Shown one piece after another: positions 2-28,660 of a stretch of 36,248 nucleotides of DNA. The stretch is taken from contig DYNY01000010.1 of the NCBI GenBank assembly GCA_020720815.1, positions 1-36,248 on the forward strand. Reading direction: 5' to 3'. The notes under the pieces are model-generated. The model did not search any database. It saw nothing but the letters and a program-made list of their open reading frames with translations, and was not told where the DNA came from. This DNA comes from Candidatus Elulimicrobium sp. GTDB taxonomy: Bacteria > Patescibacteriota > Minisyncoccia > Phycocordibacterales > UBA918. The stretch's first letter is position 1; each line of letters opens with the position of its first letter. Both the position numbers and the translations under genes were made by a program.

Positions 2-241
2 GGTTGTGCTCCCTCTGGCACTAAGCTAAAGCCAGGCGGTAGATCACTATTTGAATGGAATTTAGCGGGCTACGGCGTTTCGGGTTTCTTCTACAATCGT
101 GCCAGCTACGGCTACTTGTGGTCGTCTTCCGAGTCCGGTGGCAGTGCCTGGGTCCGCATCGTCCTTTCTGGCGATGCTCAGGTGTTCCGCAATGCGGGTG
201 GCAAGACGGTCGGCTGTTCTGTCCGGTGTCTTCAGGATTAA
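2..241 (+). CDS. C-terminal end of a C-type-lectin/FISUMP-like protein, possible DGR target (partial)
   Basis: The reading frame is open from the window edge to TAA at 239-241, so only the last 79 residues are visible. It reads YGVSGFFYNRASYGYLWSSS, then SESGGSAWVR, and ends GCSVRCLQD. The WSSSE, SAWVR and SVRC blocks are typical of the Fibrobacter succinogenes major paralogous (FISUMP) domain and of formylglycine-generating-enzyme-like C-type lectin folds. These are also the fold of many diversity-generating retroelement (DGR) target proteins, which are common in CPR genomes. Many codons here have the NNC/NNT form expected if a template with AAC/AAT codons were mutagenised at adenines. No template repeat or reverse transcriptase lies in the window, so the DGR role is inference; the fold assignment is fairly safe. 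The N-terminus, probably including a signal or anchor, lies outside. Confidence 0.7.
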   Translation, partial: GCAPSGTKLKPGGRSLFEWNLAGYGVSGFFYNRASYGYLWSSSESGGSAWVRIVLSGDAQVFRNAGGKTVGCSVRCLQD

Positions 242-2074: not shown

Positions 2075-2425
2075 ATGGAAAAAACACAATACAAAAATAA
2101 TCAACGTATTTCACGACACAAGCGTATACGCGCTAAGGTGTCTGGTACGGCAGAGCGACCACGGCTGGCTATCTTCCGTAGTAACCGCTACATTTACGCA
2201 CAACTTATTGATGATACTGCGGGCAAGACTATCGCCTGCGTTGATTCACGAAAATTGGCTGGCAAGACTCTCACTGAGCGAGCTGCTAATGTTGGAGCTG
2301 AAGTAGCTGTTAAGGCGAAGGTGGCTGGTCTAACTGAAGTAGTATTTGACCGTGGTGGTTTCCGTTATCAGGGAGCAGTAGCTGCTTTGGCGGAAGGAGC
2401 GCGTAAGGGAGGACTAGGATTCTAG
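2075..2425 (+). CDS. rplR: 50S ribosomal protein uL18
   Basis: 116 residues. RISRHKRIRAKVSGTAERPR near the N-terminus, then LAIFRSNRYIYAQLIDD and the C-terminal FDRGGFRYQGAVAALAEGAR with GGLGF match uL18, the 5S rRNA-binding protein of the central protuberance. A 21-base gap separates it from uL6. The basic N-terminal tail fits 5S rRNA binding. Confidence 0.95.
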   Translation: MEKTQYKNNQRISRHKRIRAKVSGTAERPRLAIFRSNRYIYAQLIDDTAGKTIACVDSRKLAGKTLTERAANVGAEVAVKAKVAGLTEVVFDRGGFRYQGAVAALAEGARKGGLGF

Positions 2426-2458
2426 TGCGAGGTTTACTTAACAAAATATAAAATAACA

Positions 2459-3091
2459 ATGACAGAAATTAAACAGCCGGAAGCTACAACTGACGTAACG
2501 TCAGATCTTGAAGTGGTTACACCTACTTCATCCGATGCACCAGCTGTTGCCACTGTTGAGACTCCTGCCACAGATGCAAGAGGCCGTCGCGGTGCACAGG
2601 GAGGTGATAAAAGAAATCAACGACGTCCACGTCGTGGGGGAAGACCGGAGCGAGTTCGTCCAGAGTTTGACCAAAAAATCATTAGTATTCGTCGTGTAAC
2701 GCGTGTGATGGCTGGTGGTCGTCGCTTTAGTTTCTCAGTTGCTATTGTGATTGGAGACAAGCGCGGTAAGGTTGGAGTTGGGATTGGTAAGGCTGGAGAT
2801 ACTCAAGCAGCTATCGAAAAGGCTGTCCGTGATGCTAAGAAGAGTATGATAATTGTACCAATGAATAAGGAAGGTCATATTTTACACGATGTGCATACTA
2901 AGTATGCCTCTAGTGAGGTGATGATTATGCCAGCACCAGGTCGTGGTATAGTGGCCGGCTCATCAGTACGTACTGTACTTGAACACGCTGGAGTAAAAGA
3001 CGTTACTGCTAAGATTTTCTCTCGTAGTAAGAATAAACTTAATAATGCCAGAGCAGCTGTCGAAGCTCTTAAGCTCCTAAAAAATAAATAG
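2459..3091 (+). CDS. rpsE: 30S ribosomal protein uS5 with N-terminal extension
   Basis: 210 residues against about 165 in E. coli. The first 60 or so residues are a low-complexity tail, acidic and Thr/Ala-rich, then very basic (DKRNQRRPRRGGRPERVRPE). The core then follows: KIISIRRVTRVMAGGRRFSF, GDKRGKVGVGIGKAGD, and the C-terminal domain with APGRGIVAGSSVRTVLEHAG and RSKNKLNNARAAVEAL. uS5 takes part in decoding fidelity. No Shine-Dalgarno precedes the ATG. The next gene, three bases on, is uL15: the uL30 gene that usually sits between them is missing, as known for CPR bacteria. Confidence 0.95.
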   Translation: MTEIKQPEATTDVTSDLEVVTPTSSDAPAVATVETPATDARGRRGAQGGDKRNQRRPRRGGRPERVRPEFDQKIISIRRVTRVMAGGRRFSFSVAIVIGDKRGKVGVGIGKAGDTQAAIEKAVRDAKKSMIIVPMNKEGHILHDVHTKYASSEVMIMPAPGRGIVAGSSVRTVLEHAGVKDVTAKIFSRSKNKLNNARAAVEALKLLKNK

Positions 3092-3094
3092 TAT

Positions 3095-3563: not shown

Positions 3564-4835
3564 ATGCCAAAATTCTTCCATAAAATCAGTCTTATCTTCA
3601 CTGAAAGAGCTATTCGTAATCGTATTTTATTCGTCTTGGTTGCCTTGGTGTTTTTCCGTTTATTAGCCGCTATTCCAATTCCGGGAGTTGACCAGGCGGT
3701 GCTATCACAATTCTTCAGTAACAATCAGTTCCTTGGTCTATTAAACATTTTCTCAGGTGGTGGTTTGGCTAACCTATCTATCGTGATGCTGGGTGTGGGG
3801 CCTTTTATTACTTCTTCGATTATTCTTCAGCTGATGACAGTCATGTCACCGAAGCTTAAGAGTATGTATACCGAAGAAGGGGAGGCTGGACGTGCTCGCT
3901 TTACACAATATGGTCGCTTACTCACTTTACCACTAGCAGTCTTGCAAGGATTTGGCTTTTTAACTCTTTTGCAAAGCCAGGGTGTCATTACTGGTTTATC
4001 CGCTTTTGATTTTGCGGTTAATGTAGTATTGATTGTAGCTGGTTCAATTATGCTGATGTGGATTGGTGAACTAGTAACTGAGTATGGTATTGGAAACGGA
4101 GTTTCGATTCTGATTTTTGCTGGTATCGTAGCGTCTTTACCATCAACTCTAAGCCAACTACTCTTTACCTTTGATCCTTCCAAGTTACCACTTTTTATTG
4201 GTTTTGCGTTTATCGCTTTAGCCATTATCTTCGCAGTAGTGTTTATGACTGAAGCAGAAAGACCGGTGCCAATTACTTACGCTAAGCAAAGTCGAGGTGG
4301 TACCACATATGGTGGTAGCTCATCCTATTTACCACTGCGTCTTAATCAGGCTGGAGTTATTCCTATTATTTTTGCTTTATCAATTCTACTGTTCCCACAG
4401 ATGGTGCTAAATATCCTTACGGCCTTTGATTTACCATGGGTAGCTGGAGCGACGGAAACGGTTAACGCTTTATTAGCAAATCAATTACTTTACGGTGGAG
4501 TTTATTTCCTCTTAGTCTTCCTCTTTACCTTCTTCTACACCGCGGTAACATTCGATCCTGATGCTATTGCCAAGAACTTGCAACGAAACGGTGCTTATAT
4601 TCCTGGTATTCGTCCAGGCGATCATACCTCGGAGTACCTAGGTAACCTCATCACTCGTTTGACATTAGTGGGGGCTGGTTTCCTTGGTGTAATTGCAGTC
4701 TTACCGATTGGTATGCAAATGGCGACCGGTATCGCAGCGCTAGCAATCGGCGGTACAGCGGTATTGATTGTGGTGTCAGTAGTGTTGGACATGATTAGAA
4801 GAATCGATGCTCAATTATCTCTAAGAGAGTACTAA
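3564..4835 (+). CDS. secY: Preprotein translocase channel subunit SecY
   Basis: 423 residues with about ten hydrophobic segments. Family signatures are visible: AIPIPGVDQ near residue 37, the region ending SIVMLGVGPFITSSIILQLM, the TM5 region LVTEYGIGNGVSILIFAGIV, and the cytoplasmic loop with ERPVPITYAKQ. The pore plug region after TM1 is present. It exports unfolded proteins across the membrane with SecA and SecE, neither of which lies in the window. It is the last gene of the ribosomal operon; a strong bidirectional terminator follows. Confidence 0.97.
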   Translation: MPKFFHKISLIFTERAIRNRILFVLVALVFFRLLAAIPIPGVDQAVLSQFFSNNQFLGLLNIFSGGGLANLSIVMLGVGPFITSSIILQLMTVMSPKLKSMYTEEGEAGRARFTQYGRLLTLPLAVLQGFGFLTLLQSQGVITGLSAFDFAVNVVLIVAGSIMLMWIGELVTEYGIGNGVSILIFAGIVASLPSTLSQLLFTFDPSKLPLFIGFAFIALAIIFAVVFMTEAERPVPITYAKQSRGGTTYGGSSSYLPLRLNQAGVIPIIFALSILLFPQMVLNILTAFDLPWVAGATETVNALLANQLLYGGVYFLLVFLFTFFYTAVTFDPDAIAKNLQRNGAYIPGIRPGDHTSEYLGNLITRLTLVGAGFLGVIAVLPIGMQMATGIAALAIGGTAVLIVVSVVLDMIRRIDAQLSLREY

Positions 4836-18323: not shown

Positions 18324-18477
18324 GTGCTTTTTCTTGAAAGGCCTTAATTTTGGCTTCCTGTCCTACTGGATTGGTAAATTTCTCCGTAAAGTCTGTGTAG
18401 TATATCAAAAAACAAGAAAGTTTCCCTTGCGAGTAAACTTCCATGTTGTTCCATATTCTTCTGCATACTTCTATGTC

Positions 18478-18874
18478 GGTGGAGATGGCGAGAATTGAAC
18501 TCGCGTCCGAATCAGTTACTCAAGGTGAATCTACAGTGTGTAGTTACTTCTTTGGTTTAAAGTTCTTGTCTTGAGAAGAAACAAAACAACAAGGACTCGA
18601 GTTGTTACAATCTTGATCATTCATGACAACGGCAGAAATGACCACAGTCTCGTGTTTATTCTACAATCGTGCCGTATGAGGCGTTTTAACACGACCGCAT
18701 CGCTCCGGGTCTCGACGAATGGTTACGCGAGAGCGGGAGCGAATCCAAACGCGTTAGCGTAAGGACTTGGTATTGCTTTGTTTGCAAATACAAGGTGGAA
18801 CCTTTTAACGAATTGATTCCAATTTCGACACTGCACACACTTGGGTAGGCTAACCGTCGATGCCTAGCATCCCC
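18478..18874 (-). ncRNA. ssrA: tmRNA (ribosome rescue)
   Basis: Read on the minus strand, the 5' end GGGGATG (18874 down) pairs with CATCTCC near the 3' end (18487-18481) as a 7-bp acceptor stem. The T arm CGAGTTCAATTCTCG is present. The tag frame opens at GCA about 18789 and reads ANKAIPSPYA then NAFGFAPALA before TAA, 20 codons. After the acceptor stem the genome reads ACCG, so CCA is not fully encoded and must be added. It rescues stalled ribosomes with SmpB, whose gene lies 266 bases upstream on the same strand. Single-piece, not permuted. Confidence 0.93.
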
Positions 18875-23835: not shown

Positions 23836-25344
23836 TTAAGGTAACACTACTTCCGTGCCTGGTGATAAATTAATTATTTCTACAAGACCATTAGTACCAA
23901 CCAAACCAGTTATAACTTCTGTTCTTAAGATACTACCGTTTTTTTGTTGCATAACATACGTTTTACCATCTGTTGTTAGTAAAAACCTTTTTGGTAAGGA
24001 GTATACATTTAATTTTTCTTGACTCTTAATTTTTATATCAGCATTTAAACCTTCACGAAGCCAGGTAGGATTTGAATCTAACTTTATTAAAGCATCATAG
24101 TATGCCACCCCACCAATATCTGAAGATAATGGCGAGATAAATGTAACACCAGCAGAAAATACTTCTGCTGGTGAGGCATCAAATGATACTTTTACTTCAT
24201 TCCCCACCTTAACTTTTGTGATGTCAATTTCTGGTATTTGGGCCTTAAGGTTATAAGCCCCTTCATAGACTACTGTAACGGTGTGATTGATACTGGTTGA
24301 CTCACCTACTTTCATGTCGACATTGGTGACTATTCCTGTAAAAGGAGATTTTATAATATAATCTGAAATTCTAGCTTCTTGGGCAGAAAGTTGTGCCGTT
24401 GCTTCACGAATGTTTGCCTCAGCCTGGGCGATGGTTTCAGTAGTGGCAGTAGCTAGCAATATTTTTTCTGATTTTTTAGCCAAAATTAGTGCCTCTTCAG
24501 CTGACTGTATAGCAGATTTTTCTTGTGTTAGGAGTAAATCGTAGGTATTTCTTAAAGATAAGTAATTCAGACTTCGTGTATTAGGAATAGAGATTAACCA
24601 ATTACTAGCTTTATATTTTTCGGTGTCAGAAAATTTTATAAAAAGCCCACAATTTCCGAGTGTTTCTGGAACATCAGTATTGGCATTAAATGTTCCATTG
24701 CTAAGTCCGCTTAAATAATAAGAAATTCCTGAAGGAGCATTTGAATTATAGATAGACAAGGTGTAGGTACCTTCATCTTCACAAAGATAGTTACCAGAAA
24801 TCGTGGGAGGAGTGTCGTCGTTTGTGTTGTCTACCGGATAAGCTTGTAAATCATTTGATAGTAAGTTTTTGCGAGCATTTATAATGGCTTGGTTAAAATT
24901 TTCTTTAGTATTTATTAGTTCAGTTTCAGCCATTTTTACATTGAATTGAGCTTTGTCTTTTTCTTCTGCGGTGGCACCCCTTACTAACTGTTGTTTAATT
25001 TGTTCAAAATATTTTACTTTTTCTACGAGGCTATTATATTCTGCTACTAAGGAGTGATTAGTTATGGTAGCTATTACTTCACCTTCCGCAACAAGTTCTC
25101 CTTGTTTTTTATAAATATTTTGAATGGTGCCATTAACCGAAAAACCCAACTTGGCCATTTTGTCGGCTTCAATTTTTCCAGAAACTGTAACCGTCTCCTC
25201 TACATTTGAGGATTCTACTATGGCTGTCTCGGAAGTATTCCCTTCAATAATATAAAAAGTTTGATACAAGTACCAACCTCCAATGGCGATTACAATAGTA
25301 AAAACTAAGTAAGTCAGAAAATGTCGAGCAAATAGAATACGCAT
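23836..25344 (-). CDS. MacA/HlyD-type adaptor with a beta-rich insert
   Basis: 502 residues. One N-terminal membrane helix (about 8-30). The lipoyl/barrel-sandwich half follows (ETVTVSGKIEADKMAKLGFS, QGELVAEGEVIATI), then one helix of the hairpin (100-165). The insert of about 95 residues (168-262) contains PPTISGNYLCEDEGTYTLSI and NSNAPSGISYYLSGL, two Cys (188, 232) and many Ser, Thr and Asn. The second helix (265-340) and the other half (ISDYIIKSPFTGIVTNVDMK) complete the fold. Comparable inserts seem usual in CPR adaptors. In a bacterium without an outer membrane the target is unclear; it may bind exported peptides or link to cell-surface structures. Confidence 0.85.
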   Translation of the reverse strand: MRILFARHFLTYLVFTIVIAIGGWYLYQTFYIIEGNTSETAIVESSNVEETVTVSGKIEADKMAKLGFSVNGTIQNIYKKQGELVAEGEVIATITNHSLVAEYNSLVEKVKYFEQIKQQLVRGATAEEKDKAQFNVKMAETELINTKENFNQAIINARKNLLSNDLQAYPVDNTNDDTPPTISGNYLCEDEGTYTLSIYNSNAPSGISYYLSGLSNGTFNANTDVPETLGNCGLFIKFSDTEKYKASNWLISIPNTRSLNYLSLRNTYDLLLTQEKSAIQSAEEALILAKKSEKILLATATTETIAQAEANIREATAQLSAQEARISDYIIKSPFTGIVTNVDMKVGESTSINHTVTVVYEGAYNLKAQIPEIDITKVKVGNEVKVSFDASPAEVFSAGVTFISPLSSDIGGVAYYDALIKLDSNPTWLREGLNADIKIKSQEKLNVYSLPKRFLLTTDGKTYVMQQKNGSILRTEVITGLVGTNGLVEIINLSPGTEVVLP

Positions 25345-25454: not shown

Positions 25455-25485
25455 GCGCCATCGGATGAAGGTCTTTATAAATGTG

Positions 25486-25558
25486 TCCGCCAACTTGGAC
25501 TCGAACCAAGGGCCACAGAGGTATAAGCTCTGCGCTCTACCAACTGAGCTATTGGCGG
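25486..25558 (-). tRNA. trnI: tRNA-Ile with anticodon UAU
   Basis: 73 bases. On the minus strand the acceptor strand CCGCCAA pairs with TTGGCGG, A73 follows, and CCA is not encoded. The D arm is GCTC AGTTGGTA GAGC. The anticodon arm is CAGAG, loop CTTATAC, CTCTG; T33 precedes TAT at 34-36. The T arm is CTTGG TTCGAGT CCAAG. UAU reads the codon AUA. Most bacteria decode AUA with a CAU tRNA modified to lysidine, so this gene is unusual. C1-G72 is also uncommon for Ile. Confidence 0.92.
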
Positions 25559-25601
25559 AAGATTGGTTCGCAAACTATACCGTATTTGGCTAAAGCCGGC
25601 A

Positions 25602-25642
25602 ACGAAAACCGAGTGATGGCCAAGCCACCACCCGGTTTTCGT
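25602..25642. repeat. Long imperfect hairpin upstream of the tRNA gene
   Basis: ACGAAAACCG (25602-25611) pairs with CGGTTTTCGT (25633-25642), and GTGATGGC pairs with GCCACCAC inside, with one mismatch, around CAA. It lies between the putative RNA gene and the tRNA on the same strand. Confidence 0.6.
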
Positions 25643-25689
25643 ATGTATTGTGGTTCTGTGTAGTAATAAAGAATTAATCCGGAAAATAT

Positions 25690-26209
25690 AAAAAGTGAAA
25701 GGGCCCCACGCTGACGTTGCGTTGGGGCCCGTGCCGAAAGCCAAAGCTACGGCGGGTGGATGTGATTGTTCACATCGCCTCCTTGGTTGCGACCGGTGCC
25801 ACAGCGGTGTGGCGACGTCCAGTCTGTACTTTGCTGCTGGGGTCAAGCCAACCCCAGGGCGATGTTGGCTGAAGGTCGACAAGCCCAGTCAATCCCAATC
25901 AGCCGGGGGAAGCGGGCAGACACGGGGCGATCTTTCAGAAATGCCCCGTGTGCCCTAGCGAACGTTGCAGTCATTTAGGACCTGCGACGACGTCCGCAAC
26001 TCGAGAGACGGCCAGGCGTGGCCCGGGTTCAGGCAACGCCGATGCCTGCGGGCAGGTCCGAGATGGGGTCGACCGGCGAAGAGAAGGTGGAAGCCGCTGT
26101 TTTTACGACGGTGGAGGCCACCGGGGGTCCGTGGGTCATGGGGATTCCTCAGGAACAAATTGGTGGGACGTCACCAACAACGGTTAGTAGAGACAGAGTC
26201 GCTACTCAC
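25690..26209 (-). ncRNA. Candidate ~520-nt GC-rich structured RNA, unknown family
   Basis: The block 25700-26180 is far richer in G+C than its surroundings (by hand, 36 of 60 and 43 of 60 in the lines at 25861 and 25981), but no frame exceeds about 90 codons on either strand and none resembles a protein. A consensus promoter lies at one end (26216-26243, minus) and a GC hairpin with a T-rich tail at the other. Inside are many stems: ACACGGGGC with GCCCCGTGT (25919-25951), CTGGGGT with ACCCCAG, GATGTGA with TCACATC, TTGGTG with CACCAA. I found no match to RNase P, SRP or 6S signatures. A degraded gene of foreign origin is the main alternative. Confidence 0.5.
25701..25730 (-). terminator. Terminator of the GC-rich RNA
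   Basis: GGGCCCCACGC (25701-25711) pairs with GCGTTGGGGCCC (25719-25730), one bulged base, around a 7-base loop. Read on the minus strand it is followed by TTTCACTTTTTATATTTT. Confidence 0.6.
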
Positions 26210-26215
26210 TTAAAT

Positions 26216-26243
26216 AGCATAGCATACTTAAAAATATTGTCAA
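26216..26243 (-). promoter_or_regulatory. Strong promoter for the GC-rich RNA
   Basis: On the minus strand a perfect TTGACA (26243-26238), 16 bases, TATGCT (26221-26216). This is one of the best -35 boxes in the window, and no plausible coding gene follows it. Confidence 0.65.
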
Positions 26244-26272: not shown

Positions 26273-26307
26273 AAAAGCTGGGAAAGGCGAAGCCTTTCCC
26301 AGCTTTT
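26273..26307 (-). terminator. Terminator after recG
   Basis: AAAAGCTGGGAAAGGC (26273-26288) pairs with 26292-26307 around GAA, 16 bp perfect. On the minus strand the stem ends in TTTTTG. It separates recG from the next promoter. Confidence 0.85.
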
Positions 26308-26342: not shown

Positions 26343-28529
26343 CTACTCCATATGTAAGGTCTTGCTAATGGTGGCGATTTTTGTGGCGATGATTGGGTGC
26401 TTCGTTAGTTCTTGGTCTTCTTCAATAAGACGTTGTGCCTCTTTACGGGCAGCTTCCACCAATTTAATATTTTTTAAGGCTTCCATTCCCAAATCTGATA
26501 GTCCCCATTGCTTCAGACCGTAAAGTTCGCCACTACCACGCTGAGTGAGATCATATTCGGCTAATTCAAAACCATTTTTTGCTTGAGTTAAGGCTTTTAG
26601 TCTTTCAAGAGTTTTGCCACTTTTGCCAGTGCTATCTTTACTGGTGACGGAAAAGCAGTAGGCTTGGTGAGTACCACGGACGACTCGTCCGCGTAGTTGG
26701 TGTAGTTGAGCTAAACCAAAACGCTCTGCTCCTTCGATAATGATGTTGGTGGCATTAGGTACATTAACACCGACTTCTACTACTGAAGTGGCTACCAAAA
26801 TATCGACTTCATGTTTCATAAACTTTTCCATCACGGTGTCTTTTTCTTTTGGGGTCATTTTGCTATGGAGGATATCAATCCGAGCGTCTTTAAAAATCTG
26901 TTCCTTAAGTCTTTGTGCTTCTTGTTTAACCGATTTTAACTGAAGAGCATTTTCTTTAGTGGGGTCTGGTTCATCAATACGCGGGCAGATGACGTAAGCC
27001 TGGCGACCAGCTTTTAATTCACTTCGTATATGTTCATAGACCTTATCGATTTGACTAGGAGTAGAGAGTTTGGTGATGATGGGCTTGCGACCTTTAGGCA
27101 TCTCATCAAGGAGTGAAATATCTAAGTCGCCATAGACTGTAAGCGCTAGGGTGCGGGGAATCGGGGTGGCAGTCATGGAGAGGAGGTGAGGCATACGGGT
27201 ATCCTTTTTAGCCAGTGCCCGTCGCTGTCCCGTGCCGAAACGGTGTTGTTCATCGATGATGACATGAGCAAGATGTTTAAACTCAACTGACTTATAGATG
27301 AGGGCATGGGTGCCTATTAAGATTGGTATTTCACCATTTTTTACCCACTTTAAAAGCTGGGTACGAGAAATTGTGGTCGGTTTCGTAGGGTTTCCTTTAG
27401 ATGGAAATTTCATGCAACCACTACCAGTGATAAGCCCAATAGCGATTGGTAGATGAGCGAAGTATTGAATAAAAGACTCGAAGTGTTGTTTGGCTAATAT
27501 TTCTGTCGGAGCCATGTAAGCTACTTGGAGTGCACCAAATTCTAGTTTCTTTCCGCTACCTTCGGGGGGTCTAGAGGTAGCCACCGCATAGGCGGTAGTG
27601 GCTGCTACCGCTGTTTTGCCACTACCAACATCACCCTCTAGTAGCCGCGACATTGGGTGCTTACCACCGAAGTCTTTCATAATATCGTCAATGGTGCGTG
27701 CTTGGGCTTTAGTTAATGGGAAAGGAAAACGTTCAATAAATTTATCAAGGTGACTTTGCTCAGTCTTTACAATATAGCTATTAGAAACATTAATAGTCGC
27801 TCGTTCTTTTGCTTTAGCGGTTTGAATATAAAATACTTCTTCAAATGCAAAGCGTTTGCGGGCACTTTGCGCGTGCTCCGCCTTTTTAGGTGTGTGTATC
27901 CAAATGAGGGCAGTATTTAAAGTAGGAAGATTGTAGCGTTTTAAAATTCCTTCTGGAATCGGGTCGATGAGTTTATCTAATACACTACTGCTAAAACATT
28001 TTTGGACAGTATGATAGAACCATTTAGAAGTAACACCTTTGGTCTCACGGTAAACGGGGTAGATAGTCTCATCTAATTGTTCAGTGTCTTTAAAAATCGA
28101 GTCATGTCTATCAATTGGTAAGCTATCTAATTTTTCTACCTCAGGGTTGGCCAAGTAGAGCTTGCCTTCAGTGCCTGTAACCTTACCTGCTACCTTTACA
28201 TACAGGCCATCAGTGAGCATTTTAGCGATATATGGCTGATTGAACCACATGATTTTTATGCGAGCCGTCCCATCTTCTATCCAGCCTTCAGAGATAGGGA
28301 CACGACTCTTCCAAGATTTGCGCGTGTTAAGTCCACCAAGTTGGCCAAACACGACAGCGTCTTGATCTTTTACTAGGGAGCCGACTGATTGAATTGAGGA
28401 AATATCTTCATACCGTTGTGGTAGGTGAAGAAGTAAGTTTTCGATTGTCAAAATTCCTAGACGCTTAAGAGCTTTTTTGTGTGGTTCATCGAGACGAAAG
28501 TGAGTGGTGAGTAAGTCAGATGGGAGCAT
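26343..28529 (-). CDS. recG: ATP-dependent DNA helicase RecG
   Basis: 728 residues from ATG at 28527-28529; the open frame runs 36 codons further, but the promoter -10 box (28538-28543) lies there. The N-terminal wedge has the OB-like segment VVFGQLGGLNTRKSW. The helicase part holds Walker A GDVGSGKT (299-306), the DEQH box (IIDEQHRFGTGQRR), motif III MTATPIPRTLAL, and QLRGRVVRGTHQAYC as motif VI. It remodels stalled forks and branched DNA. One of the longest genes here, with its own promoter and terminator. Confidence 0.95.
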   Translation of the reverse strand: MLPSDLLTTHFRLDEPHKKALKRLGILTIENLLLHLPQRYEDISSIQSVGSLVKDQDAVVFGQLGGLNTRKSWKSRVPISEGWIEDGTARIKIMWFNQPYIAKMLTDGLYVKVAGKVTGTEGKLYLANPEVEKLDSLPIDRHDSIFKDTEQLDETIYPVYRETKGVTSKWFYHTVQKCFSSSVLDKLIDPIPEGILKRYNLPTLNTALIWIHTPKKAEHAQSARKRFAFEEVFYIQTAKAKERATINVSNSYIVKTEQSHLDKFIERFPFPLTKAQARTIDDIMKDFGGKHPMSRLLEGDVGSGKTAVAATTAYAVATSRPPEGSGKKLEFGALQVAYMAPTEILAKQHFESFIQYFAHLPIAIGLITGSGCMKFPSKGNPTKPTTISRTQLLKWVKNGEIPILIGTHALIYKSVEFKHLAHVIIDEQHRFGTGQRRALAKKDTRMPHLLSMTATPIPRTLALTVYGDLDISLLDEMPKGRKPIITKLSTPSQIDKVYEHIRSELKAGRQAYVICPRIDEPDPTKENALQLKSVKQEAQRLKEQIFKDARIDILHSKMTPKEKDTVMEKFMKHEVDILVATSVVEVGVNVPNATNIIIEGAERFGLAQLHQLRGRVVRGTHQAYCFSVTSKDSTGKSGKTLERLKALTQAKNGFELAEYDLTQRGSGELYGLKQWGLSDLGMEALKNIKLVEAARKEAQRLIEEDQELTKHPIIATKIATISKTLHME

Positions 28530-28537
28530 ACCCCAGA

Positions 28538-28566
28538 ATAGTAACAGAGGCGATAGCGGTTGACAA
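28538..28566 (-). promoter_or_regulatory. Promoter of recG, near-leaderless
   Basis: On the minus strand TTGTCA (28566-28561), 17 bases, TACTAT (28543-28538). The ATG is eight bases after the -10 box. Its -35 box overlaps that of the plus-strand promoter. Confidence 0.7.
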
Positions 28567-28588
28567 AAGAGTATCATTAAGGTTTTAT
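28560..28588 (+). promoter_or_regulatory. Divergent promoter sharing the recG -35 box
   Basis: TTGACA (28560-28565), 17 bases, TTTTAT (28583-28588). TTGACAA reads as a -35 box on both strands. It would serve the small gene at 28661 with a leader of about 65 bases. Confidence 0.45.
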
Positions 28589-28660
28589 GGTGATTGGCAA
28601 AAGTCTGGTGAAAGCCGACTTTAATGTTTTTAAACACGCACCTGTTTCAGGAGAAAAACG

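Follow-up and report, generated by a model that had tools for sequence, protein, structure and literature searches.

Introduction

The GC-IGR approach finds candidates for non-coding RNAs (ncRNAs) in the GC-rich intergenic regions of AT-rich genomes (PMC6429828 and work cited there), and GC-rich intergenic regions also yield short open reading frames (ORFs) that encode peptides (PMC6429828). On orphan structured RNAs in Patescibacteria we found little literature. Here we analyzed a stretch of 36,248 nt (referred to as the window), which makes up contig C8 in full; the genome (G000) has 856 kb in 49 contigs and an estimated completeness of 98%. Counts given for this genome refer to 517 kb of unmasked sequence, with several small contigs masked. 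The named relatives of the window's RecG are Patescibacteria MAGs labelled as Kaiserbacteria, Paceibacterota or Parcubacteria. We focused on a GC-rich block next to recG, which we read, with a probability of about 0.5, as a putative species-restricted orphan ncRNA gene on the minus strand.

Results

Genomic context and transcription signals

The block and its surroundings have the following layout.

26343-28637, minus: recG, upstream neighbour of the block (Pfam RecG_wedge, DEAD, Helicase_C)
About 26273-26307, minus: hairpin terminator of recG, between recG and the block
26216-26243, minus: promoter TTGACA (26243-26238), 16-nt spacer and TATGCT (26221-26216), with TG preceding the -10 element
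25690-26210, minus: GC-rich candidate ncRNA unit of about 510-520 nt, without coding signal or Rfam match
25689-25731, minus: terminator-like hairpin GGGCCCC...GGGGCCC followed by TTTCACTTTTT (pair probability 1.00)
25485-25558, minus: tRNA-Ile, anticodon TAT (UAU), downstream neighbour of the block
23836-25344, minus: gene of a HlyD-type membrane-fusion protein, beyond tRNA-Ile

The order of recG, tRNA-Ile and the HlyD-like gene is common to some congeners. Since recG has its own terminator upstream of it, the block stands alone. The initial annotation had claimed a consensus -35/-10 pair, and the minus strand indeed carries one, with 10 of the 12 consensus bases. The motif TTGACA-15..18-TATNNT is rare (14 sites in 517 kb of the own genome vs 4 in one dinucleotide-shuffled copy), and a chance match at the block is therefore unlikely. 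As a general marker of RNA genes the motif was rejected, as most of the 16 other matches to an extended pattern precede ordinary-looking coding frames.

The claim that G+C content rises sharply above that of the neighbours holds as well, with 0.61 in 25690-26200 vs 0.42 window-wide; the richest 400-base stretch in the block reaches 0.64, vs at most 0.525 elsewhere in the window. The GC hairpin with a T tail was confirmed too. Its stem has 7 bp (GGGCCCC/GGGGCCC at 25730-25724/25707-25701) and an inner CGC/GCG extension with a bulge, and hairpin and T-rich tail are located where G+C content drops, but the tail TTTCACTTTTTATATTTT on the 3' side is interrupted, and a simple terminator scanner missed the hairpin. 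Apart from this imperfect T tail, the block has the promoter and terminator of its own that are expected of an RNA gene.

Known RNA families

At gathering score, Rfam models matched only tmRNA and tRNA in the window, and no family in the block.

About 18477-18874: tmRNA, Rfam match away from the block

This agrees with the initial annotation, which could not link the block to RNase P, SRP, 6S or tmRNA and had proposed a scan that includes RNase P. With E values up to 10, scanning the block gave short weak chance matches, many of them to the recG terminator hairpin. RNase P RNA (RF00010) and tmRNA (RF00023) were both rejected as identities of the block, for which neither covariance model gave a match; the genome's copy of the former lies outside the window at G000:C23:95-532, and tmRNA is encoded at the site listed above. 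The block is within the size and G+C range of known large RNA families. That it is a diverged member of one of them (RNase P, tmRNA, SRP, 6S, ROOL, GOLLD, OLE or others) is nevertheless highly improbable and appears already largely refuted, given the chance matches and the location of RNase P and tmRNA elsewhere in the genome.

Two other units, L118 (about 1500-1720) and L121 (about 1500-1800), both on the minus strand, are each roughly 170 nt in length and have long closing stems. They have promoters of the TTGACA...TATGCT type and a 6S-type rod appearance, and no Rfam family matches them at gathering score.

Coding potential

No long frame had been seen in the block, and in fact the longest minus-strand frame within it encodes 67 aa; a 135-aa minus frame at 25475-25882 extends past the terminator into the tRNA gene. 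A long frame with high third-position G+C, the sign of a GC-rich orphan protein gene, is thus absent. To score the block with frameshifts tolerated, we used a codon model derived from GC-rich protein genes in the own genome and its congeners. The minus strand scored 1.2 vs 1.9 +/- 1.8 for shuffles, that is, without coding signal, and the plus strand scored 3.8 (p = 0.09). Control GC-rich protein genes of the genus, scored by leave-one-out, gave z values of 1.3 to 22.5, nearly all above 3, and in a second run with 119 training genes the z value of the block was -0.1. The lack of coding signal in a test that tolerates frameshifts supports a non-coding transcript. Moreover, of all GC-rich islands that lack coding signal in the 517 kb of own genome examined, the block is the longest. 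A protein match to one of the short frames would have spoken against an RNA gene; the short frames tested found none in Pfam, PHROG or NCBIfam, and the translated frames of the block had no match in GTDB genomes and viral contigs.

One short ORF deserves separate mention.

26029-26139, minus: 36-codon ORF MTHGPPVASTVVKTAASTFSSPVDPISDLPAGIGVA with Shine-Dalgarno-like GAGGA at 26150-26146, a possible small protein or remnant

It bears on a second reading, the main alternative to an orphan RNA gene, in which the block would be a protein gene of the genus's GC-rich orphan class, either short or decayed, with promoter, GC-rich leader, ribosome site, short ORF and terminator. The product would be a 36-aa peptide, with a long untranslated part on the 3' side of its ORF, or else the frame would be broken beyond recognition. 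The ORF has a G+C content by codon position of 0.61/0.61/0.78, and its peptide lacks Arg, Cys and Trp, as do 0.2% of stop-free shuffled stretches, a feature chosen after seeing the peptide. Similar units with short ORFs behind strong ribosome sites are also found at L161 and L214. Against this, an ORF of 36-codon length with Shine-Dalgarno site and ATG occurs in 10% of shuffles, the codon score is borderline (p = 0.05), and the 36-aa frame has no match among 38 congeners. About 330 nt of GC-rich sequence 3' of the ORF would be left unexplained, and no coding trace is present across the block even with frameshifts allowed. We consider a protein gene possible but rather unlikely. A peptide family built from the short ORFs of such units was rejected, with no score above that of shuffled queries.

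GC-rich orphan protein genes of the genus

The initial annotation took G+C enrichment as a sign of structured RNA, and this sign is weak here, since high G+C also marks orphan protein genes of the genus. The own genome and its congeners hold GC-rich islands (0.57-0.68) that are clearly protein-coding, their third-position G+C being high, and most islands of the own genome are of this kind. For the protein reading speaks an intact unit of the same layout in the own genome, the L085 gene, where an AT-rich promoter TTGACA...TATAGT leads directly into a GC-rich gene of a secreted protein with its own terminator. This gene (about 2266-3093 on G000:C22, minus) has a G+C content of 0.63 in a 41% G+C Patescibacteria genome, and its product ends in a PEP-CTERM-like C-terminus, EPGSLALAGLGLFGATLIRRRRS, a tail recognized by eye only.

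The same reading is favoured by GC-rich genes that can be recovered near recG in relatives. GC-rich orphan genes or islands are present on the upstream side of recG at L008 (about 3800-4320), L011 (about 930-1450) and L021 (about 3860-4500), and the surroundings of recG seem to collect GC-rich orphan units in these three congeners. Another point in its favour is the GC-rich island at L098 16541-16986 (G000:C35), which looks frameshifted. Its signal-peptide-like start and its codon-biased part lie in different frames, and it is probably a frameshifted orphan gene.

Predicted folding

Two internal hairpins stand out in the predicted fold.

25914-25955, minus: strongest internal hairpin, 4 + 8 bp, GGGC/GCCC and CACGGGGC/GCCCCGTG (pair probability 1.00)
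25759-25776, minus: hairpin GATGTGA/TCACATC, directly 3' of AAGGAGG (pair probability 0.97)

Further helices are predicted at 26015-26040 and 25837-25857. The many internal stems described initially do appear in the predicted fold, but only in moderate excess over chance, and GC-rich protein genes share this stem richness. Minus-strand folding energy is below that of all shuffles, with z about -4 to -4.5 for the whole unit and -2.7 to -3.2 once the terminator region is left out; the plus strand folds equally well. For comparison, z is -3.75 for tmRNA and -8.5 for RNase P, and GC-rich protein genes of the genus range from -1.5 to -4.9. The block (-2.7 to -4.5) does not fold beyond comparable coding sequence, and because of this overlap folding energy does not separate the RNA reading from the protein reading.

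The AAGGAGG-like Shine-Dalgarno motif at 25784-25778 (minus) lies near the 3' end of the unit without a long ORF. It is also found near the 3' end of the recG-tRNA gap units L213, L214 and L215, a recurrence that may be due to chance.

Search for relatives

The initial annotation suggested collecting homologous blocks in relatives and had named the lack of any as refuting an RNA gene. At sequence level, no homologous block was found. With BLASTN, none of 34 genomes from the same genus and 24 from the same order matched. Three overlapping sets (38 congeners, 397 genomes from the order, 380 from the phylum) likewise hold no sequence relative, and the alignments that BLASTN did return cover just the promoter or chance stretches no longer than about 36 nt. 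No match came from phages or plasmids, nor from GTDB and viral contigs. With no homologue, the structure of the block has no covariation support. The collection did yield one positional look-alike without sequence similarity.

L214:4793-5315, same strand as the window unit: unit directly downstream of recG in the Paceibacterota MAG Tobar12.5m-G43 (RecG 76%)

The two units are alike in position, strand and TTGACA promoter, and in length (522 nt vs about 555 nt, with a G+C content of 0.57 in L214). Both have a short 5' ORF, of 35 codons in L214, and a GC hairpin with a TTTTTATATTTT tail, the tails reading TTTATCTTTTTATATTTTAC in L214 vs TTTCACTTTTTATATTTTCC in the window. Unlike the window unit, L214 has some codon signal (z 3.8), and its core shows no significant similarity to that of the window unit (global p = 0.33, local p = 0.66). 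With a core alignment no better than shuffles, it was rejected as a sequence homologue. The likeness may go back to a common ancestor followed by fast change, or the two units may have come to occupy a variable gap independently. Both units could represent a single class of large RNAs that evolve fast and are fixed downstream of recG in a Kaiserbacteria-like lineage. This idea, which we regard as quite doubtful, is based on the position, strand, length, G+C and signals that they share, and would mean that their sequences have become too different for BLAST to recognize. A terminator shared by L214 and G018 was rejected as a special feature, for the G018 copy is a generic terminator that ends an ordinary membrane protein gene.

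L119 1500-2045 (G079:C32) is an orphan GC-richer unit of about 500 nt with a near-identical promoter and a fold z of about -6. Rfam gave no match for it, and none of the 41 genomes searched holds a convincing relative; as a relative of the block it was rejected, sharing the promoter only and being without convincing relatives in its own family.

The gap between recG and tRNA-Ile varies among relatives from 30 to over 1300 nt with changing content, and in the close congener G032 (RecG 80%, 99% complete) it spans only 263 nt and has no GC block. This variation, together with the missing homologue in the genomes searched, would suit a reading in which the gap is a site of frequent turnover and the block functionless GC-rich DNA, foreign or drifting, into which an adjoining promoter happens to fire. 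However, the common start and end of promoter, block and hairpin fit a transcription unit better than random DNA, and no phage or plasmid match was obtained. We hold functionless DNA to be improbable.

Discussion

An RNA gene, which the initial annotation held likely, is still the best reading, because the unit has both a promoter and a terminator, gives no coding signal even with frameshifts allowed and stands by itself; the arguments from high G+C and from stems are weak here. On these grounds we infer a functional transcript. A strong sigma-70-type promoter would start transcription near 26210 on the minus strand, and polymerase would move through the GC-rich sequence for about 510 nt until stopped by an intrinsic terminator near 25700. 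The product would be a stable ncRNA with multiple hairpins, limited to the species or a very close group, whose 5' and 3' ends may pair (AGTG/CACT) and which, once folded, would presumably act in trans. As an RNA, it would be a stable, species-restricted molecule of 510 nt, encoded by a Patescibacteria genome of less than one megabase.

We keep this claim modest because folding energy is non-diagnostic, the 36-codon ORF with its Shine-Dalgarno-like site remains and the collections searched hold no sequence relative. Also counted against it are the lack of covariation, a fold z that overlaps that of protein genes and is equal on both strands, the interrupted T tail and the finding that GC-rich islands are mostly protein genes. 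The case is also a caution: in this genus, neither high G+C nor strong folding tells RNA genes apart from GC-rich orphan protein genes, so that a codon test and homologues are needed.

Among known systems, class A bacterial RNase P RNA (RF00010) resembles the block in size and as a stand-alone RNA gene, but it has a separate genomic copy and its model does not match the block. The GC-rich orphan protein genes (such as L085, and L011, L008 and L021 near recG) share with the window unit an AT-rich promoter, a GC-rich block and an own terminator; they differ from it in having frames of roughly 120-250 codons with codon signal, neither of which the window unit has. Comparative sequence analysis is applied to each motif in GC-IGR searches, while the window unit has no homologue to compare (PMC6429828). 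In its layout the unit is nonetheless like the GC-IGR candidates, being a long GC-rich intergenic region with no known gene in an AT-leaning small genome (PMC6429828).
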